Source: Mesodorylaimus sp. YZB2_4
Lineage: Eukaryota; Nematoda; Enoplea; Dorylaimida; Dorylaimidae
Length of the DNA: 64,000 nt
NCBI GenBank assembly: GCA_030248295.1
Contig: JASANH010000647.1
Span: 62,001-126,000, forward strand
Reading direction: 5' to 3'
Shown here: in pieces, positions 1 through 41,508 of the stretch
How the letters are laid out: each line of letters starts with the position of its first letter
Numbering within the stretch: the stretch's first letter is position 1
Translations under genes and position numbers: made by a program
Notes under the pieces: model-generated
What the model saw: only the letters and a program-made list of their open reading frames with translations
Told to the model about the DNA's origin: nothing
Database searches by the model: none

Positions 1-3000
1 CAGTCTCGGCTATTGATAAACTCGCCGTCCCCACAGGCGAGTAAAGTCTCCATGCAGGCAGCTGCAAAGCAATGTCATACCCTATAAAACTTTCCCTTCA
101 CCGAATGCATACTATACCGTCGTCCAAATCGCAGTATCTGCTGCCGTTTGGCTTTGCGAATCTGGGGTCAGCACAGCCGCACATATCCAAGGCGACGGAT
201 TGATAGCATGATCTTAAGCAGCCCTAATCGAACATTGGCTCAGGAAAAAATCATGCCTGCATTAATGTAAGTGTCAAACCTCGTATTTGTAGTTGCCAGG
301 ATAGTAGTAGCGAGTTCTGTCTGGCTTGCTGATACAGTCTCCTATTTTTGTGATCACTTTCTACAAAGGTGGTGCAAGGCCAGATTTCAAGGACCGCGAC
401 CTTTCTCAGAAACACTGTTTTACCCTGGATATCACAACCGATGTCACAACACCCGGCATGACATAGAAGCCATAGGTGGTTGGAAAAGGGTCGTCAATTT
501 GCTGTTGCAGACTGAATCGGAAGCCGACCGAGGCCGACGTGCACAGGTACTCGTCCTGAGTCGCCTGCAGAATCAATTTGAGACCTGGAAGGGAGAAAAC
601 TGAAGTAGGAGGACCTCGTGAGCGGTATACTTAAGTGCTACCGTATCGAGGGCCAACAGCATACGCGGAACGCATAGTTGCAAGGTCGAAGTTGAAGGTA
701 AAACAATTGCCATAAGATGCCGTGAAATCGGTTTTAAAATTGCTGAAAACCAGCAGATTAGTGCAAAATTGGCTGACCTGGCAACCTACAGTATGCTTAC
801 CTCGGGTCCAGGCAAGAGATTTCGTCATAATAACACTTGACGAATATACTCTCCCACTGCATTCCTATTTTGGCCCGTGTGTCCTCCGGAAGTCGAAAAA
901 GTGAATAGGGCAAAGCGGCATTGGCTAATGCTAAGTTTGATATGTAATCTTTGTTCAACTGAAAGGATTTCTGATGGATAAAGGCAGCATCTAGTTAAGT
1001 ACCACGGTTTTCCTTACGTGCAAACCCGCGCGTTCGAAGAACCTTTGTACAAGCTCCACTTCTGATGATGTTTCGACATTCGGATATGGCGGTTTCCATG
1101 CTAAAGCATAAAACTGTTTTCAAAACAGATCCCTCTTCAGGAAATGCATTGACAACAGAAGCTCTGCTGCTGACGAGAATCTTATCGGCAGCCAAGTTCT
1201 CATAAACCTTCAGTATCAATTTATGAAACACGATGTCGTCGTCAGAAAACTGTACCTGCGCTCGTCGTTTGGGCGGTGCTCGATTTAGTTGACACTGCCA
1301 GTTTATGAGTTTTCGAAAATTTTTGCGTGGTGGCTAAGGTGGTACTTGTCATCGTACTGGTGACTTGCTTGAGTGGGGTTGTAGTCTCATCGTCAGTTGT
1401 CACAGCAGGATCGAATGCAGACGAAGTGGGAATAAGAGCAGTCGCAGTAGTGCTCGCTACTTTCGTCCCTTGCTTCACTTCATCTGTAACAGCTTGTGCA
1501 TCTGTGCTCCTGCTACTCGTAATTAACGTTGTTAAAGGAGAAGACATGGCTTCAGTGGTCAATATCTTGGTGCTTGATTGCAATGAAGTGATCGCCGTTT
1601 TTAGACTGGTTGTGGTCGCGGGCATGTTTGAGGGAGTGATAGTTCTGCCTGTGCTGGTCGAAGCAATGTTAGAGGATGAGGTAATTTCCCAGCATCCAGT
1701 TGGGTCACAATCAACTGTGGGAGTGCTCACAAGGGCAGTTGCATAGGTATCCACGTTATTTTTAGTTCCAGGTTTGACTTCAGTTGTAAAAGCAGGCATT
1801 GAGCTTGGGATGGTTGGAATGAGAGTGGATGAAGGTGTGGTGGCGAATGTCGTAATGATCGCAGTTGCAGGCATAACCTTTGGCGTGGCGATGGTCATGG
1901 TGGTCAGTGGGCTGTTGACATGCGTCGTCTTGATCATAGATGCTGGGATAGTTGTGGTGAAAGGAACCATCATGGTTGCGAATTTAGCTGTGGTTCTACT
2001 CGATAGGGCTCTTTGTGTAGTTATGGCAGTGGATGTTGTCATTGTGGCTGCTGGCGTTGACGCGGTTGTGGTGCTGCTGTCTGTTATTGTGCTACTCATA
2101 GGTTGGTCATCTGCGGTCGTCGCAGTGGTTTGTAATGCTATCATCATGGTTGTTGGCGTGGTTGGGAGTGCAAGTTCGATTGAAGTTGTCAGTGTAGTTG
2201 AGGTAGTTCTGCTGGTGGGTGCCCTTGTGGTCGCAGATGCGTAAGCAGGTGCGGTTGCTATGGTGGTGGATGTTGCTAGTGTATTTGTGGTGTTAGTGTT
2301 AGATGTTATAACTTTTGTGGTTGCGAGCAAAGATGAGGTCGAGGCGGGAGTGACTGTTGCTGTTGAAAAAATTGAAGTGGTTGACGGCATCGTGGTCGTG
2401 GCTGCAGGAACAGACGTAGCTGCTGTTTTAGATGAGCTTGTTTGTGTGGCTGTGGAACTGAGTTTTGCCTCTGTCGTGGTTGTAGAGGCGATTGTTGTGG
2501 TAGGTATCACAGTCGGATTTGATTTAATCATAGTTGGGAGCTCATATGTTGCTGTGGTCGTGTCAGTGGTTAGTAATGTTTTTGTCAAGGTTGTCGACGT
2601 AGATGGAGGTGCAGGCTCAGTTGAGGTCGTCAGCATTATTGAGGTAGTCCTGCTGGTGGGTGGCCTCGTGGTCGCAGCTATGGGAGCAGGGGTAGTTGTC
2701 AAGGTGGTGGCTATTGTAGCTGGGATGTTCTTGGTGTTATGCGTTGTTGCGGGCATAGATGTAGTCGAGCTGTGTGTGACTGCTGCTGTTATTGTGGAAG
2801 TTGAGGCTGTTAAAGTCGTTCTACTGGTTGACGACATTGTAGTCGTGCCTTCCGGAACATATGTAGATGTTGTTCTGGACGAGCTTGTTGGGATGCTTAT
2901 GGCAGTGGGTACCACCGCTGTCGTGGTTGTGGTGTGTGGCATGATCGGGTTTGTTTTGATCGTAGTTGGTAGCCTATAAGTTGTTGTAGACATACTCGTA

Positions 3001-6000
3001 TCTATAGTTGTTATAGCTTTAATTGTGAGCATAGTGTTGATGGTTGCCATAGGGGTTGTTGATGTAATTCTGGTTGTGGTGTTAGCGGCTGCTGGTGTGG
3101 ATGCTGTTATGGTCGTGGTAACAGTGGACGCTGTAGTAGGGATTGGGGTCGTAGAGGTAGTGGTAAGTGGTCGTTTTGTTGTGGTTTTGGTTGGGAATGT
3201 TATGGGCTGAGTAGATGCAGCTGTGGTGGTGGCTAACAATAAGATCGATGATGCGATATTAATCGTTGTTGTTGTTGTTGTCTCTTCTCTGGTGCTGGCG
3301 GACGAAGGTGTGGTTCTTGTTGTTTCAGTAGTAGTAGTAGTACTGCTCAGTGTAGTTGTTTTATTTTCTATAGGTTAAAGAAATGAGCGATCGCTGATCT
3401 CAAGCCGTAAACGTGCTTACCTGGTACAAATGAGCAGTATCCATATCCAAGATATTGTATGGGCAAATACGCTATATTTATTCCTGGAAAGTACCCGCTA
3501 GATGAGGTGTTGTACGTATTAAAGCATTTTTTCATAGTCGGGACGATATTACTGCTAGAGATGTACGCCTCGAAAGTGAAGGCATTTGGACTGGAATCTG
3601 CCACCAGCCAGCCGTAAAAAGGTTGTGCATTTGGCATCGCAGTTTTAAATGAATATCCAATCATTCCAATCAACTTTCTTTGTGCCGGCCACAAGTCTGA
3701 ATATTTTTTGGTGCCAATTACCGCCATGTCCATCCCACGACTCCATTTGATGTGCCGTATGTGATAAATTGGCTGAGTCACGGTTTCTACGCCGACAGTG
3801 TAGACATAGGCATCTTGGAGGGCATCCCATAGGAATGTGTAGCCATAAGCTTGGAACTCCTTGTTGTTAGTCGAGGAGAATCGGTGACTGCAGAAGTAAG
3901 ACTTGGTTCCATCTTTGTACTATAAGTAATAAATTATAGAGCGTGCGTAGGGGATTCGAAGGTTAGAAAGGGGTAATACCTAGTCTCCACATCGTCAGGC
4001 AAAATCACACAAGCATGTACACAGTACTCGCATTCACAAGTTTTTCACACCCGCGTACACGAGAATATACGAAGCATGTCTATGTGCAGTACTGGAAAAA
4101 AGGTGCGAACAGTTATTACACTGTGCATAGCAGCAACTGGACCACAGGCACTAAATTTACCATGTGCTACGTGCAAAATAAGACTCAACTTACAGTATTG
4201 TTTCCCCAATTTGTTGTTAATTTCGCGCATGGAAGTTTTGTCGCTGAAAAAACGCAGTATTTATTATTAGGTCATGTCTTTTTCTTGTCACTTAAACAGA
4301 CAGGTGAGCGCTCAAAAGGCGAGAGATATATCGATGTCCCATAATTTTTTTCAGGGAAAGGGGGCGGGTAGAAAAACATTGGCAGTTATTTATTGTGCCG
4401 ATAGGTACACCATCAGAGCCCATGAAAAACACGGTCGAATGGCTTGCTAAATAGCAATTTTCCTCACTCAGACTTTATGCCTACTAGGCTCAACTGATCA
4501 CTGAGCGGATCATGTTTGTGCAACGCATTTCGACTTAGATTGGGGGGCGTGGCGGGAGATGTTTTTTTTTATCCCACGCCCGCCTACGCCCGCCTGAGCG
4601 TGGTATGCTCCCGCCAAATCCCGCCCGCGGCTCACCAAAATCACTCCCGCTTCCCGCCCGCGGTTTTCCTGCAAGGCATTCCGTCCACTCCCGCCCGCAC
4701 TTTAAAAAAACATGCCCACTCACGCCCATGAGACGAAAAGTCGCTCCCACTCCCGCCCGTCCGCAGAGCAAAAGCTACACAGGTCCTCAATCACAGGTTC
4801 TCTCTCTGCGCAATACCAGCCGAGTACATACAAACTCACAAGAAATGCAAGGCATAAAAACCAACCTGCCACAAAATCAAGACATTTCAAAGCAAATCGG
4901 CATTACTTCTCAAAAAAAGATCAACATTTTGCAGATTTATTTGAGACTGCACCTTGCATTGTCAAACAGCACTGTGGAAAAAGTAAAAATGTGGCGGGAG
5001 ATTAACTTTTTGAATGGGACCCACACCGCTTCCGCACCCTTGTTGCTTCATTCCCTCTCCCGCCCGCCAGTTTTGGTGCCCGCCCCTTCACGCCCACTCC
5101 CGCCCGCCGCACAAAAAACACTCCCGTCCCGCAAAACTCCCGCGGGTCCCATGGACACTCCCGCATTTGCGGGAACGGCGCACGCCTCTAACTTATATTC
5201 ATGACACCAAATCGGTTTGAGATGCTTGAGAGATTTCTCACTGGAGCAAGACGCAATAAAAGTGCGTTACAATTCAGTGTCAACCATTTAATGGTTTGAT
5301 CGAGAAATCATGACATTGGCAGTAATAAGCAATTATTTGACAACTGCTTACCAGTTAGAGACTCACAATCAGCTCCCTGCGTGGGTCTGGTAAGATAACA
5401 GTCTAACGCTGCCGACTCAAGGAGGGCCTCAAACCATTGCCCGCGATCCCTTGTCTGCCCCGAAAGGATGAAATGTGCCCCTGAAGTGCCCCAGAAGTGT
5501 TAGAAAAACCTGGAAACGCGCACCTTCAGTTAACTGAGGATTTGTTGTACATCCACCCCTCACGCTTGTCGGCAGTGTTTGAAGCTCGCGGTCAGCCTAC
5601 AGTAGGGCTACTGACGATGGGATGGCTCGATACATAAATTGGTTTTGAAATGGCATTGATCGCCATACTATGTAATGGCATCTGTGATTCCCGTTAAAAA
5701 CTTATGAGACATAGACGACCGCAACCGCCAGGAGCAGTCTCTTTTCATCACCACCTGCTTACCATTTGCCGAGCCCAGAACGCAAACTGTTGTCTGCTGA
5801 GTCGTGACCAGTGCATGATCGCAACTTCCAGGACTGCCTTTCTTAAACTTGCAGGCGGACACGCCGTTGACCTTGCTCGTATCAGTTACTTCGCTGCACT
5901 GCCCTCTCAGCAAGTTGCAATCGGAAGTTTCGCCATTGTCTACATTGTACCACGGGTCGCCTATCGTCGGGAAGTTGGTTATCCCCGTCCAAATATCGTC

Positions 6001-6337
6001 AATGTTTTTTTGATTCCTGTCAAAACTTGAAGATATTCAAGGAACAAAAATGTTTTTAACACAGCTCACGCAAAGTAACTGAGCGCATCAAGTTGTGCTT
6101 GGTCTCGAATCATGGGCAGTGTGGCACTGATGTTCGCGCATTGAGTTCGAGCAGTTGCCCAATCGTTCTTCGAAGACAAGGCATAAAAACAATAGTCTCC
6201 GCTTTGACTATAACCGTTCGGACAATTGGACTGAGCGGTCGAAAATTCTAGAAATATCTCTTGACGCGAAGGTCATTGTCTTTTTAAAATAGCATGGACT
6301 TACCCACTATCAGATATATAAGCCAGATAACCGCCAT
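1..6337 (-). CDS. Copy 1: secreted-lectin / mucin / DEG-ENaC chimera, 3' end outside window
   Basis: A multi-exon gene read from 6337 down. Exons I can place are 6304-6337 (signal peptide MAVIWLIYLIVG), 6070-6247 and 5763-6016 (C-type lectin halves, with Cys pairs, WTGIT and a WYN motif), 4194-4243 (lectin end, LPCAK and TNWGN), 3421-3919 (DUF5648-like domain), 1256-3367 (Thr/Ser-rich stalk, about 700 residues in one exon), 1018-1061 (FERAGL linker), 801-958, 642-742 and 424-584 (DEG/ENaC ectodomain with the IGMQW, YGNCFTFNF and YGFYVMPG motifs), then further channel exons near 285-366, 97-210 and 1-63. Each exon length keeps the reading frame of the next, which supports a single transcript. 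The family is normally a sodium channel subunit with two membrane helices; here helix 1 is replaced by the lectin and stalk part. The last exons, including M2, lie beyond base 1. The function is inferred to be a cell-surface lectin receptor; channel activity is doubtful. Confidence 0.82.
4546..5180. repeat. C-rich interspersed element with two CCCGCCC-rich ends
   Basis: Two segments (about 4549-4790 and 4990-5175) each start with the same GTGGCGGGAGAT motif and run into dense CTCCCGCCCG-type units, separated by about 200 bp of ordinary sequence. It sits inside the intron between the short lectin exon and lectin exon 2 of copy 1. The open frames here are a by-product of base composition. I do not recognise the family. 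Confidence 0.5.
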
Positions 6338-8545
6338 TACTGTACGCTTCTGTCATAACATATGTTCACAGCTCACAAAAGCAAAATAGGAATGGGACTG
6401 CTGGTCCCAGAGAGAAGGTACCCTGAGTACCAGTGCGTAATTGCCTCGCATTCGCGCTCGGCTTTTGTGGACAAAATTACTTCTAACTTCGAGTGATTAC
6501 CAAGTAATGGAAGGTGGAAGATGCTAATCATTCACAGTTGAAACTGAACAATGAAGCCAAAAGAGGTTTTCTAGTCTTGTGGAAATTTGTTTTGTAGGGG
6601 AATGAATTTGGACCAAAATCAAAGGACGCTCGGTCCATTATTTTTGAGAATCAGAAAGAGCCTTTCTCTTTGACCTTTTTGCCATTTCCTTTTGCTTCGA
6701 AGCTAGAAATTTACTTCGGAGGAACAGGGCAGAGAAAGTGGCTCCTATGGTACTTGTATCGGTTTGACTGGTTTCAATGCTCTGCTTCTGGAAGATCAAT
6801 TGGATGAAGGAAAAGAGGAATCACAATTCAAGCCAGTTTTATTTTGCACCAAAGTAATGTAACTCCTCACCAGTAGTTACGCCGGAGCTTTCTGGTAAAT
6901 CTTTTAAAAGAGATCCGAGGAAAACTTTAGAAGGTGACTATGATCGTGGGACAGGGTTGGAAGGATTCACAGAGTAATTTTGACGCCTTGGGCTGGTATG
7001 TGTGACTCACCAATGACGGAGTGTGATTTATTAGTTACTCACGTGTCATGCAAGTGCTCCCAGTTTAAAATATTTTGAAAAATATACGATGAACTACAAG
7101 TATAGTATTGATCCGTCCGTCTTTGTTAAAATACTAAAAAGCTCATTTGCTAAACTGCTTTACAGACTGGGTAGAATGTTCTGACCAACAATTTTGAAAA
7201 ATCTCTCAAATATGCTACCATGTTGATTTCCTCATGCTATCTCTTCTGAGTTAAAGCTTCATAGCATTCTGGCCGCTGCTTCCTAGTGTCTGCTCACTTC
7301 TGATTCTCATATGACTTGGTTAGCCGGTATCCTACAGATCTTACCACACCGTCTCGTCAGTGCTGACCCAAGTACGCCATGCTGCTGGCTTGCAATCGAT
7401 AAGACAATGCAGTCGAGCAATGATCACTTCTTTCTTGATAAATAGTCGCAATCAGCACTGACGATGAGTCATATCGGCAAACTTCAGACGCCCTACAGTC
7501 GAACTCGGTTATCTGCACGTCAGTTCGCTGCAGCACTGATTCCCTTTTCTTTGGCTTACATGTACAATAGGAATCTCGGCTAATTGCAACGATTTTTCAA
7601 GCCTAATTTCACTCAGGCAGTGGCATCACGGGGTTGCAGTTGGGTGGAAAACTTGAATTTGCCCGCGATGTCCAAGGCATCATCAAGGCTGCCCCCTTAC
7701 TTGCAACTACAAAGTACCAGTCAGGCTCTGTTGGCACAGCTAGGTAGGTCATTTGGATTGCGCCTGTGAATCACGCAGCGGTTGAAACATCAACTCGAGG
7801 GTTTGACGTATCCGAGTCATGGGAGATCAATTCTCTCAACCTCTTCTAGCGTTTCGCCGTAATGTGTCTGACACAAGGGTTACAATGCCCACTTACACCA
7901 TTTGCCCAGGTAAGGCAAGAACGGGTCCTTCGCAGCGATAAAAGGGGGAATTCAACCATGCTAACTTTCTGAATAAAGGGCCTCGGAGCGGGCCTATATG
8001 TCAGCTTGTGCGAATCTATATCCGTGTTCGATCAATTGCAATAAGTCAGACGATTAACCATTAAAAAAACACAATTACTATAGCTTTCGATAGAACTGCT
8101 TCTTGGTGCTGATGATTCGTTTCTTTGTTTTCCTTTATTATGAGCACCAATAATTCAATGGCGAACCTTGCTTTACTCAGGAACGGGGAGACTGTTCTAT
8201 TGCTCGCATATATCGACAGTATCTTTATACTGAGGCTCAAACTTTTAAACGTGCAGTGTATCACTTCCGCTTATTATGAACTGAGGCGCCTTTCAACTAC
8301 TGTATACAGCATGATATAGATAAACACTCTAATCCTCCAACGATTTTTAAAATCAGAAATGTTTCTCCCACACCTAACGGCCTAACGGCAAAACATCAGG
8401 TGACTGCAACTTCGCTTATCCGGGCCTTTTTGGCGTCTACTGCACTTGTGCACTTGGTCTCACCTGCCATGGTGGAACTGCTCAGTTCCACCGTGGTATT
8501 GACAAGCTGACAAGCTCGACAAGTGCTGGTCTGACTAGTAAATGA
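6338..8545. other. Intergenic stretch upstream of copy 1
   Basis: I see no coding signature, RNA gene or recognisable repeat here. It should hold the promoter of copy 1 just above 6337, but no clear TATA or initiator stands out. Confidence 0.4.
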
Positions 8546-9320
8546 GTTCCACCAAAACTTTTAAATCGACAAGCTTGTCACTGGTCGTGACAAGCAATTG
8601 CAACTTGTCGGACAAGTGCATTTTCAGCGGTTTACAAGTGACCAGTTCCACCACTTGTCAGTAAAAGCGGGTTACTTGTCAGAACATTAAAAAATTTTGA
8701 CAACCCTAACTCAGCCTTGTCAGAGCGTAGAATAGTCGTCAAATCGCTTGACAATGATCGGTTTTCTTTAAAAAATTGTGTGCAATTATTATGAGTAGTA
8801 GTAGCGAAAGCGATGATGGTGAGGAAAATATTATTCCTGTTCGGAGAAGGAAAGTTTACCGTCCAAGAATCAATTTTGAAATCGACGACTTTATTGCCAG
8901 TTTTCGGCTTAGTCGAGGAACCTTGCAACGGATTTTGACGGACAGCGTATTCGTAAATTTCTTCGCACTTGCCTTGCCTCGCTTCCTTCGCATGAATATT
9001 GTCCAATGATCCAAAAAGATAATCCTTCGCATTCCTGATTTTATTTATAATCAATACTTTTATCGCATTTGCATCGGTTTTCTTTTTCTTTGTCGTAGCC
9101 AGAGCCGTTTTCTTCGAAGTACTCATGTTTAAAGCAAACTTTGCAAAACGATTTACCCAGCACACAACTGATTGCAGCTTTTTTGACAAGTACTGTTCTG
9201 ACAAGTGATTCACTGACAAGTACTTTACGTTTTTTGTGGAACTCAGTTTGAAAAGACTTGTCACGACAAGACTGGTCACTTGTCACTTGTCACTTGTCAA
9301 TTTGCAGCTTTTGGTGGAAC
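8546..9320. mobile_element. Deleted PIF/Harbinger-type DNA transposon
   Basis: The two ends carry inverted GTTCCACCAAAA termini, followed inward by many GACAAGT/ACTTGTC subterminal repeats on both sides. Inside, the plus strand at 8791-9008 encodes the start of a Harbinger-like transposase (YRPRINFEIDDFIASFRLSR, a basic N-terminus and helix typical of the family), cut off before the catalytic domain. The minus strand at about 8800-9123 reads a Lys-rich protein start (MSTSKKTALATTKKKKTD...) that could be the second, Myb/MADF-like ORF of such elements. About 2 kb of a normal element is missing, so it is non-autonomous. No clean 3-bp target duplication was identified. Confidence 0.6.
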
Positions 9321-10790: not shown

Positions 10791-11019
10791 GCAATGCAGA
10801 GACTTTATACATATACGTATTTACACGGCTGCACGCACACCACACTAACTGTACGCATGAGACTAACGCGACCTATTACCACAAGATCACTAGTCAGATT
10901 CAAGCCAGCCGTTACCCTTGCAAACGTACCTCTACCGTATATACCATTTTATATAAGGTCTGGACTATCATTTGCAAGAACCTGTTTACCATACTCACTC
11001 ATCCCACCCGTCAGAAATA

Positions 11020-14000
11020 TTCTCAAGTTATCGTGCGGATTTGAATCCTTTGATTCAGTGCATGAACCCGAGGGACTATTATGGCCAGAATCACAATGAT
11101 CACTTCAAACAGCGCAGCGGGTCCGACATTGCAGCTGGCGTTCAGTATATTTATTATTTGCGCTACCAAGTCTGGAAACTGTAATGCAATTCGGTAAGTG
11201 ACGAAGAACATATACTGTATATGCAGGTGCTCGGAACTTACTGGGAAAGCTTCTGTCTCGTAGTAGTGAAATTCAACCAGATGGTTGTAGTAAATATTTA
11301 CTATTGCAATGTTTTTCCTAAAAGTCACAGAATATTTTCGCACAGAAAATTCGTTTTAGGTTGAGACTAACTTCAGGTACGCCATGCAAGAGATTATCTC
11401 GGTCACGTTGGCATTCATGACCAATTGGCAAGTCTCAGCCTAAAAAGAGTGAAATTGCAGTTCACAAGACTGCACAGTCTCATACTGTACCTCAATATAA
11501 GGGTAAGACGACTATAGCTCAACACCGCAGGGGCTTTCAACTAACAAACTTACGATGTATCTGTTTTCAATACTGATTTCGGAAAACGTGATGACGGTGC
11601 TGTAAATAACTTCACTGAAAAGATCAAGAACGATCGATTGTGATGTTTCAACTTCTCCTGGACTAACTCGAGACCTAGCTACCTGCATGCCTCCAAGCAG
11701 TCACAGTCTCGTAAATTGATGAACTCGCCGTCCCCACAGGCGAGTAAGGTCTCGAGGCAGGCGGCTGAAAACTGGGCCTGCTCAAAATACACATACTGTA
11801 CTCTACAGAGATACTGAAGACTCCATACCGTCGTCCAAATCACAATGTCTGCTGCCGTTTGGCTTTGCGAATCTGGGATCAGCACAGCCGCACATATCCA
11901 AGGCGACGGATTGATAGCATGATCTTAAGCAGCCCTAATCGAACATTGGCTCAGGAAAAATCATGCCTGCATCAAGTGTAACTGTCAAACCTCGTATCTG
12001 TAGTTACCAGGATAGTAGTAGCGAGTTTTGTCTGGCTCGCTGATACAGTCTCCTATTTTTGTGATCACTTTCTACAAAGGTAATGTGCAAGGCCAGATTT
12101 CAAGCACCGCGGCCTTTCTCAGAAACACTGTTTTACCCTGGAAATCACAACCGAAGTCACCACGCCTGGCATGACGTAGAAGCCATAGGTGGTCGGAAAA
12201 GGGTCGTCAATTTGCTGTTGCAGACTGAATCGGAAGCCGACTGAGGTTGACGTGCACAGGTACTCGTCTTGCGTCGCCCGCAGAATTAACTTGAGACCTG
12301 AGAAAGAAGACTGAAATATATGACAGCTGTTGTGCAGAACGCGAACGCTACCGTATCGAGGGCCAGCAGCATAAGCGGAACGCAGAGTCGTAAGGTTGTA
12401 GTTGAAGGTGAAACAGTTGCCGTAAGATGCTGTGAAGTCGGTCTTAAAATTTCTGAAAACCAGCAGATTAAAGCAAAATTTGCTGACTTTGCAACCTACG
12501 GTATGCTTACCCCGGGTCCAGGCAAGAGATTTCGTCGTAATAACATCTGATAAATATGCTCTCCCACTGCATTCCTATTTTGGCCCATGTGCTTTCTGGA
12601 AGTCGAGAAAGCAAATAGGGCATAGCAGAATTAATCTGTGCTATATTTGACACGTGGTCAGCATTTAACTAAAAGACAACAGATGCCTGTTGTAGTCGAC
12701 AGTCCTTAGTCTTTTCCTTACTTGGAAACCCGCGCGTTCGAAGAGTCTTTGCAGAAGCTCCACTTCTGATGGTACTACGAGGCTTGGAACGAGTGATTGC
12801 AAGACTGAAGCAGGAGTCTGACATACACATCGTTATCATACGGGTCTTCTGCCTGACGTTTGCCCCTCTTGGTCGTTCATTTTCATGGCTCACCACCCCA
12901 CCAAACACTTATGCGCACTCTAGGGTTAAGGCACACATTACACAAGAAATAATTTATCTGCCCGAGTCGAACACTTTCCTGCAACTGAGTGCCTGGCGTG
13001 AGAAGCAGACGCGTAACCCATCACAAAGCCGGTCGGTTCCCTCACTGCGACGAGTCCCCTTCCCCGCCGTCCTCGTTGAGAAACTGAGGCTTCCCAATTT
13101 TTGAACTTCATAAAAGCAGCCTTTGTTTGCGAACAAATACACATACTCTACTGTACACATAAAGTCACAGCTTGCCCAAACGGTATGAAGCGTGCTCCAC
13201 AATTCCTTGAATTATCATTAGATTTATGTAGAAGCCATGAAAAAGCAGCTACTGTGCCGGGCTCGTGGCCTGGTGGGTTAGGCGTCTGCCTCTCACGCCA
13301 GGTGCGCAGTTACGGGCGAGTGTTCGACTCGCGGCTGGGTAAATAAATGCTTGTATAATGTGTCCCTTCGCCCTTAAGTGCGCTGTTAAGTGATTGGTGA
13401 TGTGATAAAAACAACAGCAACAACAACGAATTTCAGGTGGTAGTGATGCCATGATTTCACCAACCTAAGGCATTCATGGACGCCGCCGAGAATCGTATAG
13501 AAAGGGAGAAAGTGTTTGACCATCCTACAAGCTGCACAGCTCGTACGGGCAGTGTGTCAAGTAGGTACCCGTTTTGACCCCCGCGCGATATTAGCCCTGC
13601 GCATCAGCCGGAAATTACAGGAAGGAAATAGGCTCATCGTCAGTGGGGGGAAAGGACTAATTTAAGAAACGCCCCACAACCCAACATGGGACATAGTAAA
13701 AAGCTTGCACCCAAATCAGTTGTTATAGTTATACCTCCAGGTGCGTTCGCCTGTTGGTTGGCTGCTGGAAGGATAGGCCCAGTAGTTGAGATGGTGCTTG
13801 TGGATTGCACAGACGTCGCTCTTGTCTTTTTACTTGATAGAAGATACGTCGACAACGAAGCAGGACTAGTAATTAACCAAAGTGCAGCAGTAGTGGTAGT
13901 TTCAGCCCCTTGGTTTGGTCGTGATGTATTCGTTTTTGACGTGGTAAGTATTGTCATTTCGGCAACCTTTGTCTCACTCTTCATTGAGGAGGGGATGATC

Positions 14001-19078: not shown

Positions 19079-20169
19079 GCAAAGTTTTATGCAGAAAAAG
19101 TTAGTAGAAAGTAATAGAGACCATACAGAAAAAATAGTTAGTAGAAACCATAAAGAAAAATCTTTCTCTTCGCCGCTATAAAAGGGGTGTGCAACACCCT
19201 GTAAAAGAAATACATGATCAAACCGTTGCAGTAAGCATTAGAGAAGAACGCACTGTATATGAGTAAGGGATATACATACAAGCAAACGCACATACACATT
19301 TTAAATATAGCATTGTGGTGGTGGTCGACCACAGATACGACGACAACCTGATCTCTTTCACAAGGTGAAATCAAGCTGCCTGTATAAGCTCAATCAGATC
19401 TTCGAATGGCTGCTGCTTATGCGCCTCTAATGCTCAGGTTCAATATGCGGAGTCGCGGTATTATAACGCCAAACATTGCGATGAGTATTTCGATGGTAGA
19501 AATAGGGCTGAGATTGTAGCTGGCACTCATCAAGTTTGTAGCTTGCGCTACGAAGTCCATCAACTAGAAATGTCGGTGTGCTTATTAGCTTGGCGGCTTC
19601 CAGGAGTTTGGCTGCTATAAACACTTCAAGGATAACAGTAGGGCATGTTGCAACAGTGAAGGCAAGATTTGATTTTGGCGGCAGATAAAAAAGACTGTTG
19701 TGCGCGGGGGGTGCATGATTGACCGCAGATTTCCTTGTATAAAGAGCTCTTTTGAATAAAAAGGAAAAGATATTTTTGCCGGCAGAATGTCAAATCTTCG
19801 GAGACCACGACGACGAGAAGAAAGTCAAGTAGGTGATAAAGTCATTTTTTAATGGTAGAAAAAATTAGAGCTGATAATTTTCTCGTTCAAAATGGCGTTT
19901 TGGAACTTCCTGGCTCTGCTTCCAATGCTGACTGTTTTCCTGTCAGCGGGTCAAGTTTTCCAGCGAGGTTAAAGGGTTTACACAAAATGCTATTTCAGAA
20001 ACTTTCCTCGGAGAAAAGTTCCTGCGAGTTCGACTGCCTCGCAGAAAAAAACGTTTAGGTGGTCGAGAGCACCTAAATTCGGGTTTCCTGCGAGGTCTGT
20101 CTATGGTTTAACATAGTCGTGCTGCTAAAATGGATCTCGTTGAACTCGATGAGAACAAATATTTGTCGA

Positions 20170-25000: not shown

Positions 25001-25541
25001 CTCGCAGTGTCCCGGCTTGCCCCTTTTGAATATGCATGCGGAAACATCCTTCACTTTCTCGCTGTCCCTGGCATCTAAGCATTGTGATCCTAGCAGGGTG
25101 CAGTCGGCTTCATCTCCAGTGTCGCTGTAATACCAAGGGCTGCCAATTGCTGGAAAGTTTGTAATTGCCAGCCAGAATAAATCTATGTTGGCTGCATGTC
25201 TGCGAGATGAACAGATTTTGGTAGCCTGGATAAAAATGCAAGTTTCATGAAAGCAACCTACGCAAAGAAGTCAAGAGCGTCCAATTGTTGACGATCTTTG
25301 ACTATTGGCACTGTTGCACTGATATTCGCGCACCGGGTTCGAGCTTGAGCCCATGAAAAAGAAGATGGCAAGGCAATAAAGCAGTAATCCCCGCTGTGGA
25401 AATAACCATTTGGACACGATGACTGAGATGCCACGAAACTGACGCCAACTGCTAAAAACCAGGAGCTCGTGGACCTACCTATTATTTAAACTTACTCTTC
25501 GTCTTACCAAGAACTTTAAAGTAAATCCAGGCCAGACACAT
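22040..25541 (-). CDS. Copy 3: lectin / short-stalk / DEG-ENaC chimera, last exon disturbed
   Basis: The start is at 25541 with a signal peptide split by a short intron (MCLAWIYFKVL then AVGVSFVASQ). Lectin exons are about 25255-25455, 24946-25210 and 24850-24900; the DUF5648-like exon is about 24290-24786. The stalk is short (about 135 residues) and lies at about 23753-24176. In this copy the Thr-rich stalk and the FERSGL linker are in one uninterrupted open frame, which is direct evidence that the mucin part and the channel part belong to the same protein. Channel exons follow at about 23370-23560, 23210-23330, 22970-23180 and on to 22190-22260 (IFYNRLVEF). The expected M2 exon near 22050-22150 shows a hydrophobic stretch (MFASVAMVFLIARIGAD) but a TAA directly ahead of it in that frame, and a SINE lies immediately downstream. 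The 3' end may therefore be broken, or spliced in a way I did not resolve. Confidence 0.68.
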
Positions 25542-26320: not shown

Positions 26321-26709
26321 TATTTGCTGGCGCACTACAAACAGCAAACGTTTATCCATACATGAACCAACACAAAAATTGTGAAAACATTTTTCACATG
26401 AATTGGAGTGGAAACATCACTCTAAAACTGATGATAGACATACAGTAGCGGTTCCTAAAAGTCTTTTCACAAAATTTTTCTTTTTTATCAGTCGATTCCA
26501 TGCTCGTTGTCGATCTTGGTATCAGCCTCACCACAAAGCGTTGACGACTCTACGCTTTCGCTATCAGCATGGCGTCGGCGATCGCTTCCGGGCGATTCGT
26601 GGGCAGACTGAACGGGCAAGATCCATGCTTGAGTTGGGTGTCACTTGTTCGGCGAAAATGCAGTTGTGATCACGAATCCAAAATTTCCAAGACCCGGTGC
26701 ATACTTGGA

Positions 26710-29700: not shown

Positions 29701-29830
29701 ACGCAGATCGGGCATCCATCCAAGTGTTAGTGGAGGACTTGGAGAGAAAGCAGTAGTCTCCACTTTGAACATAATTAACAGGGCAGTCTGTTTGCGCAGC
29801 CATAATATCAGCTTAAAAGTGTATCAGATC
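26710..29830 (-). pseudogene. Copy 4: broken lectin / DUF5648-like / stalk gene without a channel half
   Basis: Remnants in order from high to low are lectin exon 1 (about 29650-29830, CPVNYVQSGDYCF), lectin exon 2 (about 29305-29560), the short lectin exon (about 29205-29260, NQLPCAK), the DUF5648-like exon (about 27310-27795) and a Thr-rich exon (about 26710-27240). Several lesions are visible. Lectin exon 1 has an in-frame TGA after RDQQ. Exon 2 has TAG at the position of the conserved Trp plus a frameshift. The DUF-like exon has a frameshift near 27540, just after LVGIIG. No FER linker or DEG/ENaC exon lies between 26,700 and the start of copy 3 at 25541; a SINE occupies part of that space. 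A mariner-type MITE is inserted in the intron upstream of the DUF-like exon. The copy is dead as a full-length protein. Confidence 0.75.
27856..28240. mobile_element. Mariner-type MITE
   Basis: A 385-bp element with 26-bp terminal inverted repeats, TTGGGTGTTCCATAAAGAAT at the left matching the right end with two mismatches, flanked on both sides by TA (27854-27855 and 28241-28242). The TA duplication and the CCATAAAGAATGACCC-like ends are typical of Tc1/mariner. It holds no transposase, so it is non-autonomous. It is inserted in an intron of pseudogene copy 4. Confidence 0.75.
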
Positions 29831-30600: not shown

Positions 30601-30604
30601 ATTC

Positions 30605-32360: not shown

Positions 32361-32373
32361 TCCACAGTTGCGC

Positions 32374-35300
32374 TCACGCAGTTCTAATCCTACGGTGCAG
32401 TCCAAAAATTCCAGGCATCACTGCTTCGAATATAAATACCAAAATTTCCACAATCACCAAAGCGTTGAAACTGTAGCCGATATTCATATAGTTTACCACT
32501 TGTGATATGAACTCTTGGAGCTAAAAACAGTGCGTAAGAAATTCTGATTTTGCAAAGGAAGGCCATTGAAAATGTTTACCGGAATCGCTTCAGCCTCGAC
32601 GAAGTGAAATTCAACCAGCTCGTTGTAGTATATGTTGACTATGGCCATATTCTTCCTGAAACATGGACTTGCAACATTCCCATGTTATCTTTTCTGATAA
32701 TCATGCTCGTAGCTGGACTGACCTCACATACTCTTTGCAAGAGGCCTTGTCATGAATGCCGTGGCGCTGGCATGCTTCTGCCTACAGAGAAAAACCGCAA
32801 TAGCCTTGGCGCGTGATAGGGCTACAAAGGGCTTCTTACAATGAAGCCATTCACAACATTGATTTCAGAATTGGTAATGGAATTGTGATAAATAACTTCC
32901 CTAAAAACTCTCGGTGAGAACAGCTTTACAGAAACAACTCTGCTGTAACCTTACTTGCAAGCTTGCAAGCAGTGACAGTTGTGTTGCTTCAGCAGATCTC
33001 CATCGCTGCAAGCCATCAGAGATTCCAAACATTCCGCTACAAAAAGATATTTTTTATACGTGACACTTCTGGTTTAAACTATTCACGCCGTACACTCGTT
33101 TACGCCGCAATAATCTCTATTTTCAGGTTTTGCAAATCGTGGGTCCGCGCAACCGCATATTTCAAGCGCAGCTGTTTGGTAACAGCTTCTCATACAACCC
33201 TGTAAGAATCGATGATGTTGGTATTGTATCGATAAACGTGTTAGCCATCCCTTATTGCGTACTGTCACCTACAGTAGCAAGCATTAGCTTACTTCGTATC
33301 TGTAATTACCAGTGTAATAGTACTGGCTTCTGTTAGGCTCGGTTATACAATTATCAATCCTCGAGAAGACTTGCTAGAAAAGCAATTAATCAGGGTTACA
33401 AGTTTTTTAACTGGGCAGATACAATGTATATTTAACTGTACCTTAGATACCTCGACCGAAGTCAACACGCCTGGCATAACATAAAAACCATATGTGGTCG
33501 GGAATGGGTCGTCTATTTGCTGCTGAAGACTGAGCCGGAAACCAGCCGAGACGGAAGTGCATAAGTAGTCTTCTTGCATTGTTTCCAAAACGAGTTTTAG
33601 ACCTAGAATCGGATGTGATAGTCCTCTTTGTCGGAATTAGACATGAGGAACATGTACCGTGTCGCGGGCCTACAGCATACGCAGTTTGCGGATTTTTGCT
33701 GTCGAAGTTAAATGTGAAGCAATTCCCATACAAGGCGGTGAAATCGGTTTTGAAATCTCTGCATTGAAGTGAGACTTTTATCAATTTATCGTCTCCTATT
33801 AATCATCTTACTTCTGATCGAGACAAGGCTCGTTATCATAGTAACATCTGAGAAATGTAGCGTTCCATTGCATGCCGACCAGTGACTTAGTTTCTTCCGT
33901 CAAATTAGAAAACATGTAGGGCATGGCAGCATTGGCTACGGCCATATTAGATGTGTGATCGGTTCCTAGCTGAAAAGCACGAACGTCTGTCATGGATGGG
34001 TGCTGCTGCTAATGTGTCGTTGTTACCTGTGCCCCCATTCGCTCAAAAATAGTTTTGACAGCCGCGGTTGCAGTTGTTGAGACGTCAGTGGATGATGCTA
34101 GCAAAGAAGAATTTAGTTGAAAGTGCAGCTACTGTGAATCTTGCCAAGTCGGAAACTGAGCGCAATGAGGCTGGCACGAAATTCAGATTCTACACAAGGC
34201 AGACGCACACTGTGAGTCAGGCGTTACCTTTCGGTGAAGAAGTTGCCAGAAGCGCGTCTGTTCCAGATGTGGATGTAGTTGTACTGGTACCGGTTACTGC
34301 GAGGGTGGTGATTTGGTTGGTGAGAGTGACAGTGTGTATTAAACTGCTGTGCAAGGTTGTAGTGGTGGTGGCAGCAGTGGTTGATGATGGTCTTGTCGAT
34401 ACTTGCGCTTTCTTTGCAGTTAGAATAGGTGTCGCAGCTGGAGGTGTCGCTGTTGATGTTGTTGTTGTGGTCGATGTGGTCGCATTGATTACTGTTGTAG
34501 TGGCCAACGACTCAGGTGGTGTAAGGAATTTTGTAGTCACTGAAGCCGCAGGAGTGGGCGCCATGGTTATTATTGAGGTCGCCGGTTTAGTCGTAATCTT
34601 GACTGTGGTTGGATGCGCAGTCGTCTTCTTTGTGGTAGTCAAGCTAGTTATTGTAGGTGTCATGGTTGTTAAAGGTTTCATCGAGCTGGTGGTTAGGGAT
34701 GCGGCTGCTGTCGTAGTCTTTGGCTTCACACTTGCTGAAGTCATTGCTGGAGATGTTGTGGTCGTAGACGTTGAAGCTGTGGTCCAGTATGTTATCAGCG
34801 AGTTGGAACTCATAGACACCATTGCTGCCGATGTCCTAGATTTCTCCATGCTACTATTGCTGGGCGCTGGTGTAGTTGACTTTGTGGTCACAGTGACAGA
34901 CGTATTAGGCGCTGGTGTACTGGCCGTCGTGGTCGTTTTTTTCATTGTTTTCGCGGCTGTGGCGGTCGAGGTTTTCACTGTAGCGGTAGAAGTTGATGTA
35001 GTCATCACAGATGTCGTTGGTATCGTGGTTGTGGCTATTTCACTTGTTGTTGCTGCTGTTGTAGTCGAAGTGGTCGAAGTGGTTGAAGTTGTTGTGGTCC
35101 CATTGATGGCTATAAACGGAATCAGCACTCGATTTATTTTGATTTCCTGACAAGAGTGACTGTAAATGAACGTACCAGTTATGTTGCAGTATCCATCTGT
35201 ATAATCTGTGGGCAAATAGATCATGCCGTTGTTCTGAAGCCAAAATATGCCTGGGAAGTTGCTACAAGTATTGGCTTCGACAGTGCTATTGGTAGACAAA

Positions 35301-37480
35301 AATCCTTCACGAATGTTGCTCGATTTATTGTCGATGCCTCCCCAAAAGGCAAATATCTGCTTCGACGTAAAAGTTGGATTCCGTAGGCCATACCCGATCA
35401 CTCCCACCAGTTCATAGACGCCGGGTGACTGTAGGAGCAGATCTCGATTTGCCTCACCAACTACAGTCAGATCATGCATGGGATTGCACGACTTGTCTTG
35501 GAAGCGATAGATTGGTACAGTCACATTCGGCACAGGTACACCATACGCATATACGCCCAGATTGTCCCAGATTATTGGGTAAGTCTGATTATCTTGAACG
35601 TTTCTGGTAGAAAATCGCTGGTCACAAAGCACCTTGCGGCGATTACATGAGTACTAAAGAGAGATTACTTATTGATTGTTCATGGCATTTCAGCCTACTG
35701 ATTGTCGCGACTCTCACGATAGTGACCTTCAATTCTTCTCATCGAATCATCATATCGCATCATATCATCACCTTTCAGCTCATTACCCTTTCTCACGGTT
35801 CTTCCTGAGCCTATCCAGTTTCCTGAGTAGCGCACTCTCCGCTTCTAACCCAAACAGATTTCTTTTGCCATCCACATTCCACTCCTCAGCTATTCTGCGC
35901 CTATTAACTGCAGGGATATATTTTAGTGTGTCATTAAATGACTGGCAGAAATCAGGTGTGCTCTCTTCCGAAGGGAACATCGCTTCGCTGCTTGTGTAAC
36001 CAGCGCACCCAGGCGGCGGGAGATAGTCGAGACCGAAGTCTCTTAGCAAAAAACTCCAAGTCTCGCACGTTTCGCAAGGCAAGCTCCAAACCAAAAAACA
36101 ACCCGATTACTCCCACCGCAGCGCTGGTCACACTTGTGAGCTGCCCCGCTACCAACGCTAACTAACAGACTGGTGATTTTGGGGCCCTTTACAGAATAAC
36201 CAAGCAGCGACTTACCTCTCTGTTAGATACCTGTCGGGTCCATATTTTGCTGCAAGGTAGCTTCGGGGCTAAAACCAGAAAGAATTTGATCGTGTGAGCT
36301 GCACCTAGACGCGCTGATACAATGCTAGACAGGTTTTACCTGTTAAAGCTCCCTGTTCACAAACGGCATGTTTCTTGTTTCCGATCGGCTCATGGTCGCA
36401 GCCCTTGGGCAAGTCCAGCTTGTCTTTCTTGAACTTGCAGCTAACTAGATCTTTGACTGATGATCCAAGGTCACTACATTTTCCACCAATAACGGTACAG
36501 TCAACCTCCTCGCCAGTGTCAATGTAGTACCAAAGTCCTCTGGCGTTGGGCATGTTTGTGATACCAGCCCATATATCATTGTTAATTGTCGTATTTTTGA
36601 AAATTCTGAAATACAGTAAACGTCGATGATTCTTCTATTTACCAGGCATGTGTTTTGGGAAGGGTATAAATAGGAGCGTCTAGTCATGCATCAGTCAGAG
36701 CGTATTTTCGTGCTAGTCAGCGAACGTCGTCTTTCGATCGCTCGTCTTGGTTTTCGTTGTCGTTATTCCCCACGAATTGGATTCGGCAAGTCGATGGCAC
36801 GCTTGGTCGGCGCCTGTGGCAGCAAACGATATGATTCGCACCGCCAGCGTGCGTAAGCCATAATCGAGTGTGGTCGAGTGCAGTTGAGTCGCTAGGGTCA
36901 GCTAGGTCAAAGTCCCTCTCCCTCGCCCAACTTCATCACAATATCATGATTGCTGGCCAGTTTTTGGCAATGGGTTCGAAAGTCCCATAGGTACATTGAG
37001 ACAACATGAGGCCACCCTATAAAACGTTTTAAAAAAGAAGAAAAACCTGCACTCAAGCACTACTTGTATCGGGTTGTTACTTCTATGTTCTTCCCAAAAA
37101 CCCAGAAAGATCACTGAGAACCTTGACCCTAAAGTGATATTATGGTCTATACCCCTTCAAATTCTTAGTTCATGCCTTCGAGTGCAAGGGGAAAAATTTT
37201 TTTCTGGAAGTACTTACGCGTAATTGTTCAAGGCGATCATCTCTTCTCGGTCATGTAGCATGGGCATGGTGGCATTTATATCCTCGCAAGCTTTTTGAAC
37301 GGTTAACCAGGCCTGATCTGAAATTCGTGTAAAACAAAAATTGTTGACTTGGTCGTAGCCCGGCGAGCAGTACTGGGCATGTGACCACTGAAATAATACA
37401 CAGAGAGCTGAAAAGAAATAGCATACAATATACTGAACGATATTAAGTAGTAGCAGAGATTGAACATTTTCTTACTAAAG
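32374..37480 (-). CDS. Copy 5: complete lectin / mucin / DEG-ENaC chimera
   Basis: Lectin exon 1 lies at about 37220-37400 (CSPGYDQVNNFCF), lectin exon 2 at about 36330-36610 (DIWAGITN, WYYIDTGE), and the DUF5648-like exon at about 35180-35650. The stalk exon spans about 34222-35113 (about 295 residues). The next exon, about 34026-34100, starts Ser/Thr-rich and ends KTIFERMGAQ, so stalk and linker are again physically joined. Channel exons run from about 33980 (LGTDHTSNMA, IxxMQWNATFLRCYYD) down to the pre-M2 exon near 32580-32670 (NIYYNELVEF) and the M2 exon, which ends with TGA at 32374-32376. The first exon is not fully resolved: an ATG near 37461 opens a hydrophobic leader, but it needs a small splice or frame change to reach the lectin exon. 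Junction phases otherwise match copies 1-3. A decayed LINE abuts the 3' end. Confidence 0.75.
36640..36960 (+). promoter_or_regulatory. Possible Pol II promoter or solo LTR inside a copy 5 intron
   Basis: GGGTATAAATAGGAG at about 36662 is followed about 30 bp later by a TCAGTC initiator-like word, in an otherwise unexplained intron and on the strand opposite to the host gene. It could be a solo LTR or a cryptic promoter; no flanking duplication was found. Confidence 0.25.
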
Positions 37481-38469: not shown

Positions 38470-41400
38470 TCAGGCTAAAAGTACTTGGCATGGCGGAATT
38501 AACATGACCACCATAAAGACTAGTTCAATTATCGAAATAACGCTAATGTTGAGAATGACGTTCATCAGATTCATTGATTGTGACGCGAAATTTAACAACT
38601 GAAAAGGCAACATATTTATTTATCTGCATATTGCTCACGATTGCCTGCCGCAATTTAGCGACTCCAGTAGGAGTGCTTTGTGTAGGTGCAGTGTATTCTC
38701 TCACAAGCAGTGCATGTGGAGATGGGAAGAATCTTTCAGTCGTAAAACGACTGGGTCTGTATTACTGGAGGGAGTGACGCACCACACCAAAAACCGCAGG
38801 CAGCCAAGTCTTCCGGCCTAGTACATGGCTGAAACGTCACCCTGACGGGTGACGCTCACAGCTGCAGGCTCCGTGTAGAGTATCGACTGCCAGTCGAGCC
38901 TCTACACAATCACATCTTGACTTACTGAAAATTCTTCACCCTCACAGAATTGAAACTCAACCAGCTGGTTATAAAAGATGTCAAATATGGCGATATTCTT
39001 CCTAAAACACACGCTATGAAATATATATTTTTCTGCTCTGTCTTGCAAGTGACCATACTTGACATAATCTCGACAGGCCTGATCATGCGTGTCATTAATA
39101 TTTCGTTGGCACGCGTCTTTCTAAAACAAAATGGTGGCATGTAAAGTGGTAACTATACCATCCATTAGGCTTAAGCGATTTTTAAAAGCCTGCCAGCGAA
39201 CTTAAATAGCTCGAAAGGCACGGACGTCACAGAAGAACGCACGAACAATCATTAACAACGGGCACTCTGATTTCCATAGGCGCCTCAGTGACACTGATCG
39301 ATTATCCCAGCCCCAATGGCGCCAAGCTGTTATCGCTTTAATTATAGCTACTACATTGCGCAAGACTCCAACCCAGTTTCAAGTGCAAATTATTATTCCA
39401 GATTAAATCCAGCGTAGTAAGAAAACCCAGATCCCCTGAAGGAAGAAAACAGGATTATGCAGCACCCTAATTTCAGGAAACACTGGATAGGTATCAATTA
39501 CTAGCTTTATTATTTCATCACATAAGTAAATGTCCAGTGAAGGAATGTGTGTCGGAATAAGGCTTCACTTTTGGTGCCAGACAGTCAAGAAATGTAAACG
39601 TCGCTAGACCAACTGAGCGCAGTAGGCGGGCTAACCATGTGAGCTAACTGTGCGCACGAAGTGTAAAGTGCTCATTAAGTGCTATAAACTACTGGCTCAA
39701 ATTTCGTTGCATTCACATCACAAGCACTGTAAAAGTACCACATATTTATTGGCCATATTGAATTCGGATACTGTTATTACGGTGTAGTAAATGACTTCGC
39801 TAGAAATAAGTCACAAAATACACCAAGATAATCGAAACTGCCAGATAAAGCTTACAAGCATCCTTGCACGCAATGGCAATCCTGCGAAATCTGCAGTTCA
39901 GCTTCTCCGCAAACTAGTAGGGATTCCAAACAGGAAGCTGCAAGGAACAGGTATGAGTCGGACAGGAAAGTCAATCTTCAAACTGCATACCGTCGTCGAG
40001 AGTGCAGTATGTGCTGTTGCCAGGTTTTGCAAATCTGGGGTCCGCGCAGCCGCAGTTCTTCAAAGCAGTTGTCTGGTAACAGCACTTCATGCAACCCTAA
40101 AGCACAAACTGCCCTGAGTGACCCTTTATGCATAGCATAGCGCTTGAGACTCGATTCGTCAGAGGGATCACCGATTCAGTGGAGCACTTGCCTCGTATCT
40201 GTATGTGCCAGGATAATAGTGCTTCTTTCGAAGGTTCCTTGACAAATTTACCGAGTCTCGAAAATACTTTCTACAAAAGGTCATCCTGCCCACTGAGATA
40301 CTATAGGGATAAAGATACTACTACCGTGGACACCAGGCATGACGTAGAAACCATAGGTTGCTGGAAAAGGATCATCAGATTGCCGCTGAAGACTGAATCG
40401 GAAACCGACTGAGGCTGATGTGCACAGATAATCCTCCTGCCTTGTCTCTAGGATCAGTTTGAGGCTAGTGAAAGATGGTATATTAGACAGTGGGTTATGA
40501 TTGGGCCTCCGATACCATGTTTGATCCAACGCCATAGGCCGTATGTGGGTTTTCAGTTTCAAAATTGAAAGTGAAGCAGTTCCCATAAAAGGCTGTAAAG
40601 TCAGTCCGGAAATTCCTGAAACATTTATTTTCTTCTAATCGATCCTTTCAGCACAAGTGTTCGCTCCCCAGTCACCTTTTGTCGAGTCAAGAGACCTCGT
40701 CGTAGTAGCATCTGATAAATATATTCTCCCAGGTCATTCCTATTTCGGCCATCATGTCAGGCTTCAGGCTTGAGAGTAAGTAAGGTAGGGCGGCATTGAT
40801 CAATGCCATATTCGAAATATGGTCGGTGCTGCCTTGAATCTGCATCCAGTAACACCTGCGTAAATATAAGCGCTACAATGCCTAACACCTGGCATATTGC
40901 CGCAAGGAAATTTAAGGGTAGAACAGTTAGGCTGCTCTCCAGTGTCGAAATAATACCAGGGAGAATTGGCATTACGGCTGTTCGTGATGCTTGCCCGAAT
41001 GTTGTCTTTAGCAGTCGTCTTTGCCACATACCTGAAGAACAAGGATTCTTGAATAAGGAACCCAAATAGAGTCACTGATCACTGTATATGCTCTTGCCAC
41101 CCCAAGGGTTATGGGATTTCAAAAAGATCCGATCCCGGGGATACAAGTGAGCATATTTTGTTATTTTCAATTATGACTTTTGTACGTATTATGGCTCCAA
41201 AGGCCATGGCGTCCAAAGTCAGATGGCAGATACTGTAAAGTTCAAAGACCATGCCTAGCCTGCACCTTATTCTAAAAAAATACAGATTGAGCTTACGCAA
41301 AATGATTCAGAGCCATCACTTCCTCTTGACCATGAAGCAAAGGCATTGTAGCGCTTATATTTACGCAGGCTCTTCGAGCTGTGTCCCAATTCGCTTTGTC

Positions 41401-41508
41401 CGGTGGCACTTGAAGATAGCAGTAATCATTGATTTGAGTGTAACCTGGCGAACAATACTGACCGCAAGAAACCGTCATAACCCAAAGAAACCCTAAAAAT
41501 AACAGCAT
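38470..41508 (-). CDS. Copy 6: internally deleted lectin / DEG-ENaC member
   Basis: It starts at 41508 with a clear signal peptide (MLLFLGFLWVMTVSCGQ) running straight into the first lectin exon. The second lectin exon (about 40885-41040) keeps WYYFDTGE but has lost the conserved Trp of the WxGIT motif, and it breaks off after about 50 residues. The rest of the lectin, the DUF5648-like domain, the mucin stalk and the FER linker are missing. The channel part follows at once: exon 40693-40850 (IGMTW), then about 40540-40610 (YGNCFTFNFE), 40320-40470 (YGFYVMPG), and on to 38936-39010 (FYNQLVEFQF). The M2 exon has its stop at 38470-38472. Channel exons look open and conserved. Whether the lectin fragment is still spliced to the channel is unclear, so this may be a pseudogene or a shortened receptor. 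Confidence 0.55.
38735..38925. repeat. Interspersed repeat (family 6), copy a
   Basis: The shared blocks are ACGACTGGGTC, ATTACTGGAGGGAGTGA, CCAAGTCTTCCG, CTAGTACATGGCTGAAA and a CACCCTGACGGGTG hairpin. They recur at 59340-59525 together with the adjoining channel exon. Confidence 0.6.

Follow-up and report, generated by a model that had tools for sequence, protein, structure and literature searches.

What becomes of a sodium-channel subunit when a lectin is placed in front of it, and can the product still be a channel? The question is raised by a 64,000-nucleotide stretch of the nematode Mesodorylaimus sp. YZB2_4 (GenBank assembly GCA_030248295.1, contig JASANH010000647.1, forward-strand positions 62,001 to 126,000; G000:C17:62001-126000 in our coordinates), hereafter the window, which comes from a draft assembly of 145 Mb in 1067 contigs. 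A first-pass annotation had described a tandem family of genes at 1-41508 that combine C-type lectin, mucin and DEG/ENaC sodium-channel parts. Self-comparison of the open frames in the window revealed a recurring set of minus-strand exons. By our gene models, these exons appear to form a multi-copy tandem family in which one protein joins a lectin-like head and a long mucin-like stalk to the extracellular portion of a sodium-channel subunit. The tandem arrangement stood. Its extent did not, as the array continues past 1-41508 on both sides, with one further copy (c0) on the left and a broken copy 7 on the right, and copies 4, 6 and 7 are broken or truncated.

Gene models and related loci

We modelled copies 1, 2, 3 and 5 as minus-strand genes encoding 1404, 1122, 825 and 1023 amino acids (aa). 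In all four models, a signal peptide is followed by a C-type lectin-like domain (CTLD), a second globular domain of ~165 aa (D2), a Thr/Ser-rich stalk, a linker with a FER motif, a DEG/ENaC ectodomain and a single C-terminal membrane helix (M2). This is the order that had been proposed for these copies, and the spliced models agree with it and are free of internal stops. Exons were found by scans that required AG/GT borders, the absence of stops and homology to copy 1, and the models were fitted by hand. Scanning with copy 1 exons recovered their counterparts, phases included, in copies 2, 3 and 5. Of the ten exons that follow the linker, eight do not vary in length among the four copies (158, 101, 161, 81, 106, 82, 61 and 76 nt). 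The leading exon lengths of copy 1 (34, 178, 254, 50, 499, 2112, 44 and 158 nt), previously reported to keep frame, do so and continue in frame through 17 exons to the stop. Stalk open frames as long as those of copies 1, 2 and 5 were matched in none of 1000 mononucleotide shuffles for each. We consider it very likely that the chimera is real at the level of gene models and that it is repeated.

Copy 1 illustrates the layout. Its exons 1-13 occupy 1-6337 on the minus strand; exon 13 spans the window edge and exons 14-17 follow at -95 to -2185 in the left flank (L009), ending in a stop at -2185 (G000:C17:59815). All introns are GT-AG and the frame is uninterrupted. Exon 1 (6304-6337) encodes a signal peptide of modest hydropathy (1.23), exons 2 (6070-6247) and 3 (5763-6016) the first and second halves of the CTLD, exon 4 (4194-4243) a 50-nt piece, exon 5 (3421-3919) D2 and exon 6 (1256-3367, 2112 nt) the stalk. 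The linker, VELVQRFFERAGLH, forms exon 7 (1018-1061), and exons 8-13 (13 in part) encode the ectodomain at 1-958. The acceptor of exon 8 is uncertain: an alternative site would give 170 nt, also in frame, and 158 nt agrees with the other copies.

The remaining minus-strand models follow the same plan. Copy 2 (11023-16767, 17 exons) has CTLD exons 2 and 3 at 16179-16663, D2 at 15036-15522, the stalk at 13711-14979 and the linker, ectodomain and M2 exons at 11023-12765. Copy 3 (19417-25541, 16 exons) has its D2 exon at 24293-24788 and a 2.6-kb intron ahead of the M2 exon. In the model of copy 5 (32374-37467, 16 exons), D2 and stalk share one exon (34228-35653), the FER linker has its own (34027-34097) and the first intron, of 26 nt, is uncertain. 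For copies 2 and 5 the stalk donor is uncertain as well, since each offers several in-phase sites.

Could two adjacent genes, a secreted lectin-mucin and a channel, merely look joined? The joining is seen in gene models, and introns do split the stalk from the linker in copies 1, 2 and 5 (194, 945 and 130 nt). Copy 3, however, carries stalk and FER linker in a single exon (23755-24176), as the first-pass annotation had stated; it had stated the same for copy 5, where the linker proved to be a separate 71-nt exon beyond the 130-nt intron. With phases that agree across the four copies, no M1 helix found ahead of the channel part and the same order on a second contig, we regard separate genes as highly improbable.

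A genome-wide search with the channel part of copy 5 gave at least 145 matches at E <= 1e-3 on many contigs (best 150 of 198 candidates); these include canonical genes, so the figure is no count of chimeras. Six more loci (L042-L047) were inspected in unspliced form. L042 (C215) contains, in order, the first half of a CTLD (E 2e-8), D2 (3e-18), a 566-aa stalk frame and the channel (2e-32). At L044 (C441), a CTLD (3.4e-12) is followed by a retroelement and by channel exons up to M2, with no stalk seen. L043 (C1) has an 839-aa stalk frame that leads into a channel up to M2, its N-terminus lying beyond the stretch, and stalk frames of 936, 936 and 1000 aa precede the channel at L045 (C76), L046 (C206) and L047 (C108). 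A recognised CTLD therefore lies upstream of the channel in two of the six loci and a Thr/Ser-rich stalk in five. The N-terminal domains of L045-L047 look like CTLDs by eye; this likeness was unsupported by Pfam, by PDB (L046) or by profile comparison (L046 and L047; probability 2), and we leave these domains unassigned. As a separate observation, the retroelement at L044 (2372-4767), which sits between the lectin and channel exons, has a weak reverse-transcriptase match that falls under the cut-off.

These loci also bear on whether the family is an artefact of assembly or annotation. A draft of 1067 contigs and open frames fitted by hand leave some room for one, including the erroneous joining of unrelated genes. 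We give this explanation almost no credence, since the repeats are diverged and C17 alone has the arrangement in c0 as well as in the four models, with the same order at L042 and CTLD plus channel at L044. Copy c0 lies left of the window, at about -3100 to -7900, and has CTLD, D2, stalk and channel exons up to M2.

Lectin-like head, D2 and stalk

Pfam scans of the spliced proteins covered copy 3 and the parts of copies 1 and 5 outside their stalks, and recovered both ends of the proposed chimera: ASC, the DEG/ENaC family, in all three copies and Lectin_C above its cut-off in copy 1 alone (E = 1.6e-5, 26 bits versus 22.6). A CTLD profile built from the four copies matched 34 PDB sequences at E <= 0.01, all of them C-type-lectin-fold molecules by name, with LY75 at the top (1e-7). 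CTLD receptors such as LY75, CD69 and KLRB1 share with the chimeras this sequence match and a single-pass design; they differ in lacking a DEG/ENaC portion, and two of them, CD69 and KLRB1, are type II proteins. The CTLDs of the four models contain no calcium-dependent sugar motif of the EPN/QPD kind ([EQ]P[NDS]) and no WND, the only WxD being a WED in copy 2. No EGF family appeared in the Pfam scans of copies 1, 3 and 5 or of six other loci. Matches to the C-type lectin domain also form a large tandem cluster elsewhere in the genome, at G000:C21:899552-951506.

Pfam recognises D2 neither in the models nor in two more loci that carry it (L016 and L019), and comparing D2 with PDB gave nothing better than E 0.36. 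A suspected resemblance to the DUF5648 repeat was supported by no scan. Searching the whole genome with copy 1 D2 at E <= 0.1 returned 11 matches (all 11 candidates scored), seven on C17, three on C215 and one on C2. D2 thus occurs beyond C17 and C215, because a D2-like domain (E 2.5e-4) is present on C2 (L019:1363-3255), where a long open frame continues from it into repeats rich in Ser/Thr and Pro.

Stalk length in the models ranges from 129 aa to 707 aa; Thr makes up 33-37% of the residues, and Thr plus Ser 44-53%. Tandem Repeats Finder reported no repeats in the stalks of the window, yet two stretches of the copy 1 stalk are 53% alike over 32 aa, and repeats are visible by eye in the stalks of c0 and L043. 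The L043 stalk frame (5882-8398) contains, by eye, many near-identical short repeats (SPTLSPSASTGTLLSST).

The channel part and its place in the membrane

The channel part is the most readily recognised portion of the protein. Pfam ASC matched copies 1, 3 and 5 with E = 1.9e-44, 2e-43 and 2.9e-45 (152.9, 149.5 and 155.6 bits versus a cut-off of 23.6), and the best PDB match was ENaC beta (2.2e-20). The FERxG motif is present in all four models, as are 17 invariant cysteine columns, and the channel part includes the YGxCxTFN motif and the cysteine-rich region. In the chimeras, the ASC match begins at profile position 133-146 of 455. M2 lies near the C-terminus, with top 19-mer hydropathies of 2.58, 2.53, 1.89 and 2.39 in copies 1, 2, 3 and 5, and apart from the N-terminal signal it is the sole 19-mer above 1.3 in each model; an ectodomain stretch reaches 1.29 in copies 1 and 2.

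By this hydropathy scan, the first membrane helix of the family, M1, is absent from all four models. We looked for an overlooked M1 exon by scanning for in-phase AG-exon-GT cassettes, 54-260 nt long, that encode a hydrophobic 19-mer. In none of the four copies did the introns from the D2/stalk exon to channel exon 8 yield a candidate. Only six hydrophobic candidates appeared, all in the copy 5 intron before D2 and hence upstream of the stalk, and we rejected them. None of five stalk frames at the related loci contains a hydrophobic 19-mer above 1.6. Among control loci, the eight best ASC matches in the genome, M1 was apparent by eye in the matched frame in six; in the remaining two, profile positions 1-88 fall in a separate exon further upstream.

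The pore filter is altered as well. We aligned by eye nine M2 segments, from c0, copies 1, 2, 3 and 5, broken copies 6 and 7, L043 and L044. The glycine of the GxS filter is lost in all nine, and the first position is N or S, under two anchorings. Anchoring on the start of M2 gives SAS, NAS, NIG and the like, in which one might see a preserved GAS filter, and with the acidic residue of the helix as anchor the triplets read NIG, NVG, NLS and the like; the glycine is lost either way. The first glycine is kept in the two of eight canonical control loci that have the filter in view (GAS in L007, GAG in L008).

Folded domains of copies 1 and 2 are under purifying selection. Their ratios of nonsynonymous to synonymous divergence (dN/dS, NG86) are 0.32 for the CTLD (154 codons), 0.12 for D2 (162 codons, dS 2.2) and 0.19 for the channel part (359 codons). 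For D2 of copies 2 and 3 the ratio is 0.12 with a dS of 3.9; in the other pairs dS was not computable.

Together, these features bear on the earlier proposal of a receptor that senses carbohydrates or a channel that glycan or mucus binding would gate, for which we found no support: the CTLDs have neither EPN/QPD nor WND, M1 is missing and the filter glycine is lost. A glycan-gated channel is not supported, because M1 and the GxS glycine are gone and EPN/QPD is absent, and the likelier product is therefore a type I single-pass receptor or adhesin, or a ligand-bearing regulatory subunit. We judge this reading, made from gene models, to be evenly balanced between right and wrong. A broader version of the channel idea would have M2 alone form the pore, with the lectin head and mucin stalk serving as a tether that gates on glycan, mucus or mechanical load. 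DEG/ENaC channels include touch-gated members, the stalks are long enough to suit a tether, and the ASC ectodomain is strongly conserved and under purifying selection in copies 1 and 2. We nevertheless find true channels unlikely, given the absence of M1, of the cytosolic N-terminus and of the sugar motif, and a filter that lacks its glycine in nine of nine M2 segments, whereas PMC10424705 describes the GAS belt as strongly conserved and as important to a working pore.

Topology provides the strongest argument for the type I reading. The secretion signal would put the head, D2, stalk and ectodomain outside the cell, with the single C-terminal M2 as anchor. Since the signal peptide is predicted to place the head outside, a retained M1 would turn the ectodomain inside; loss of M1 would resolve the conflict. 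The stalk joins near the point where the ectodomain would leave M1, so that dropping M1 and the cytosolic N-terminus should leave all domains on the correct side of the membrane. We propose that the DEG/ENaC ectodomain acts as an oligomerisation base, probably trimeric, either homomeric or together with ordinary DEG/ENaC subunits. A glycosylated stalk would raise the lectin head above the glycocalyx, and the head would bind its ligand, a protein or something else, by means other than the classical calcium-sugar site. The product might then serve as a receptor or adhesin, or regulate canonical DEG/ENaC channels as the lectin domain of polycystin-1 does for polycystin channels.

One could also take these proteins for mucins or adhesins anchored in the membrane, with the DEG/ENaC part as no more than a structural anchor. 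We think this improbable: 17 invariant cysteine columns in the ectodomain and its slow evolution in copies 1 and 2 exceed the needs of an anchor. What speaks for such proteins is the stalk itself, which is rich in Thr and Ser, varies freely in length among the models and extends to frames of 839-1000 aa at four other loci.

Several observations weigh against the type I receptor or regulatory-subunit reading. The cassette scan is blind to an M1 that arises through alternative splice sites or lies on an exon that changes phase, and the control loci, being the best ASC hits, are biased towards complete genes. At L042, L045 and L047, in unspliced sequence, hydrophobic 19-mers in other frames (1.62-1.70) occur within 400 nt past the stalk frame, where they overlap channel exon 8 or come after it. 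Because the exon scans demanded the absence of stops and two sites were revised after frame-joining failures (a 68-nt exon of copy 1 and the stalk acceptor of copy 3, whose first choice gave stops), the models are open partly by construction; the shared exon lengths are less subject to this caveat. The linker of c0 was not found in exon scans of the left flank. On the lectin side, Lectin_C in copies 3 and 5 falls under the cut-off (E = 0.011 and 0.14), and the CTLD profile matches PDB sequences chiefly over the domain's first half. The case for selection is built on few comparisons, the D2 dS of copies 1 and 2 being near saturation, and purifying selection on the channel part would be equally expected of a conducting channel.

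The chimeras share features with several known systems. With canonical DEG/ENaC proteins (ENaC, ASIC and degenerins) they share the ASC ectodomain, YGxCxTFN, the cysteine-rich region and M2, and they differ in their altered GxS, in the lectin head and stalk in front and in the loss of M1 and the cytosolic N-terminus. Among nematode proteins, the closest in design are the EGAS proteins of C. elegans, DEG/ENaC relatives that likewise bear an extra domain beside ASC; that domain is EGF in EGAS, in contrast to the CTLD, D2 and mucin stalk here. EGAS proteins are described as EGF plus ASC, and a comparison of their M1 would decide how new the present finding is. EGAS expressed alone in oocytes gave currents no different from controls, for which the authors (PMC10424705) consider trafficking or missing partners as possible reasons. 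Polycystin-1, itself a subunit of a channel complex, also bears a CTLD in its extracellular N-terminal region, and PMC7728438 describes this CTLD as required for activating the PC-1/PC-2 complex. Its multi-pass membrane core is unrelated, so the comparison concerns how the chimeras might work, not membership.

We tentatively extend the type I reading to a dispersed family, at slightly less than even confidence. In its members, a secretion signal, a head (lectin-like or of some other cysteine-containing kind) and a mucin stalk would have taken the place of the N-terminal half-channel (cytosolic N-terminus plus M1), with ectodomain and M2 retained as the base of a type I receptor. Such proteins could self-trimerise, or could poison or gate canonical DEG/ENaC trimers, and the head might sense the environment on behalf of an ion channel or an immune surface. 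To our knowledge, no M1-less DEG/ENaC ectodomain with a lectin head has been described so far. The first-pass annotation knew of no DEG/ENaC protein with a lectin and mucin N-terminus, and we found no such description in open-licence PMC full text, which lends weak support to novelty. Provided that the models are correct, a single protein unites two large nematode families, the C-type lectins and the degenerins. One could then ask if the ectodomain with M2 suffices for assembly, conduction or the regulation of other subunits, and a route from recognition to channel on the worm surface would become directly testable.

Turnover and surroundings of the array

Parts of copies 1 and 2 are more alike than many introns beside them. 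CTLD exon 3 is identical at 249 of 254 positions and the intron before it at 51 of 53; exons 11 and 12 agree at 77 of 81 and 102 of 106 positions, and the introns preceding them at 60 of 63 and 53 of 55. Exon 10 agrees at 146 of 161, and many neighbouring introns at 58-73%. We read the high-identity stretches as probable gene conversion tracts, with rough borders because the introns after exon 8 and after the signal peptide exon stand at 90% and 73%. Decay is also evident. Copy 4 (26564-29811, minus strand) is truncated to the first half of a CTLD, D2 in two frames and a Thr-rich open frame, with no channel exon found in exon scans. In broken copy 6 (38470-41492, minus strand), CTLD sequence runs into a channel exon 8 that contains a stop, and D2 and stalk are missing. 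Broken copy 7 (42190-47650, minus strand) retains a FER remnant and channel exons with stops; its lectin part was not found in exon scans. Tandem copies, conversion tracts, divergent stalks and decaying copies would fit a fast-changing, environment-facing repertoire.

The array may lie in a subtelomeric position, some 54-110 kb from the start of C17. Repeats of TTAGGC, a telomere unit of nematode type, are abundant in the genome; they occur on this contig at 466-682, close to its start, and at 9032-9073, and TTAGGC 24-mers number 972 and 921 in the genome, overlapping matches included. This reading of the contig start is weak because TTAGGC arrays also occur inside contigs, as on C15 near 246 and 507 kb. 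The genome contains no exact match to the rhabditid SL1 leader.

Other features of the window lie towards its right side. A minisatellite at 43867-45449 comprises about 95 copies of a 17-bp unit (TTCCCCCACTTGGTCGA) and is open in several frames on both strands. A 559-aa open frame on the plus strand (48450-50129) matches nothing in Pfam at E <= 0.001. Adjoining the array on the minus strand, open frames at 50338-52009 carry DRMBL and Lactamase_B_2, domains of DNA-repair metallo-beta-lactamases, which we take to be of the SNM1/DCLRE1 type. A plus-strand open frame at 62117-63223 encodes a bZIP transcription factor.

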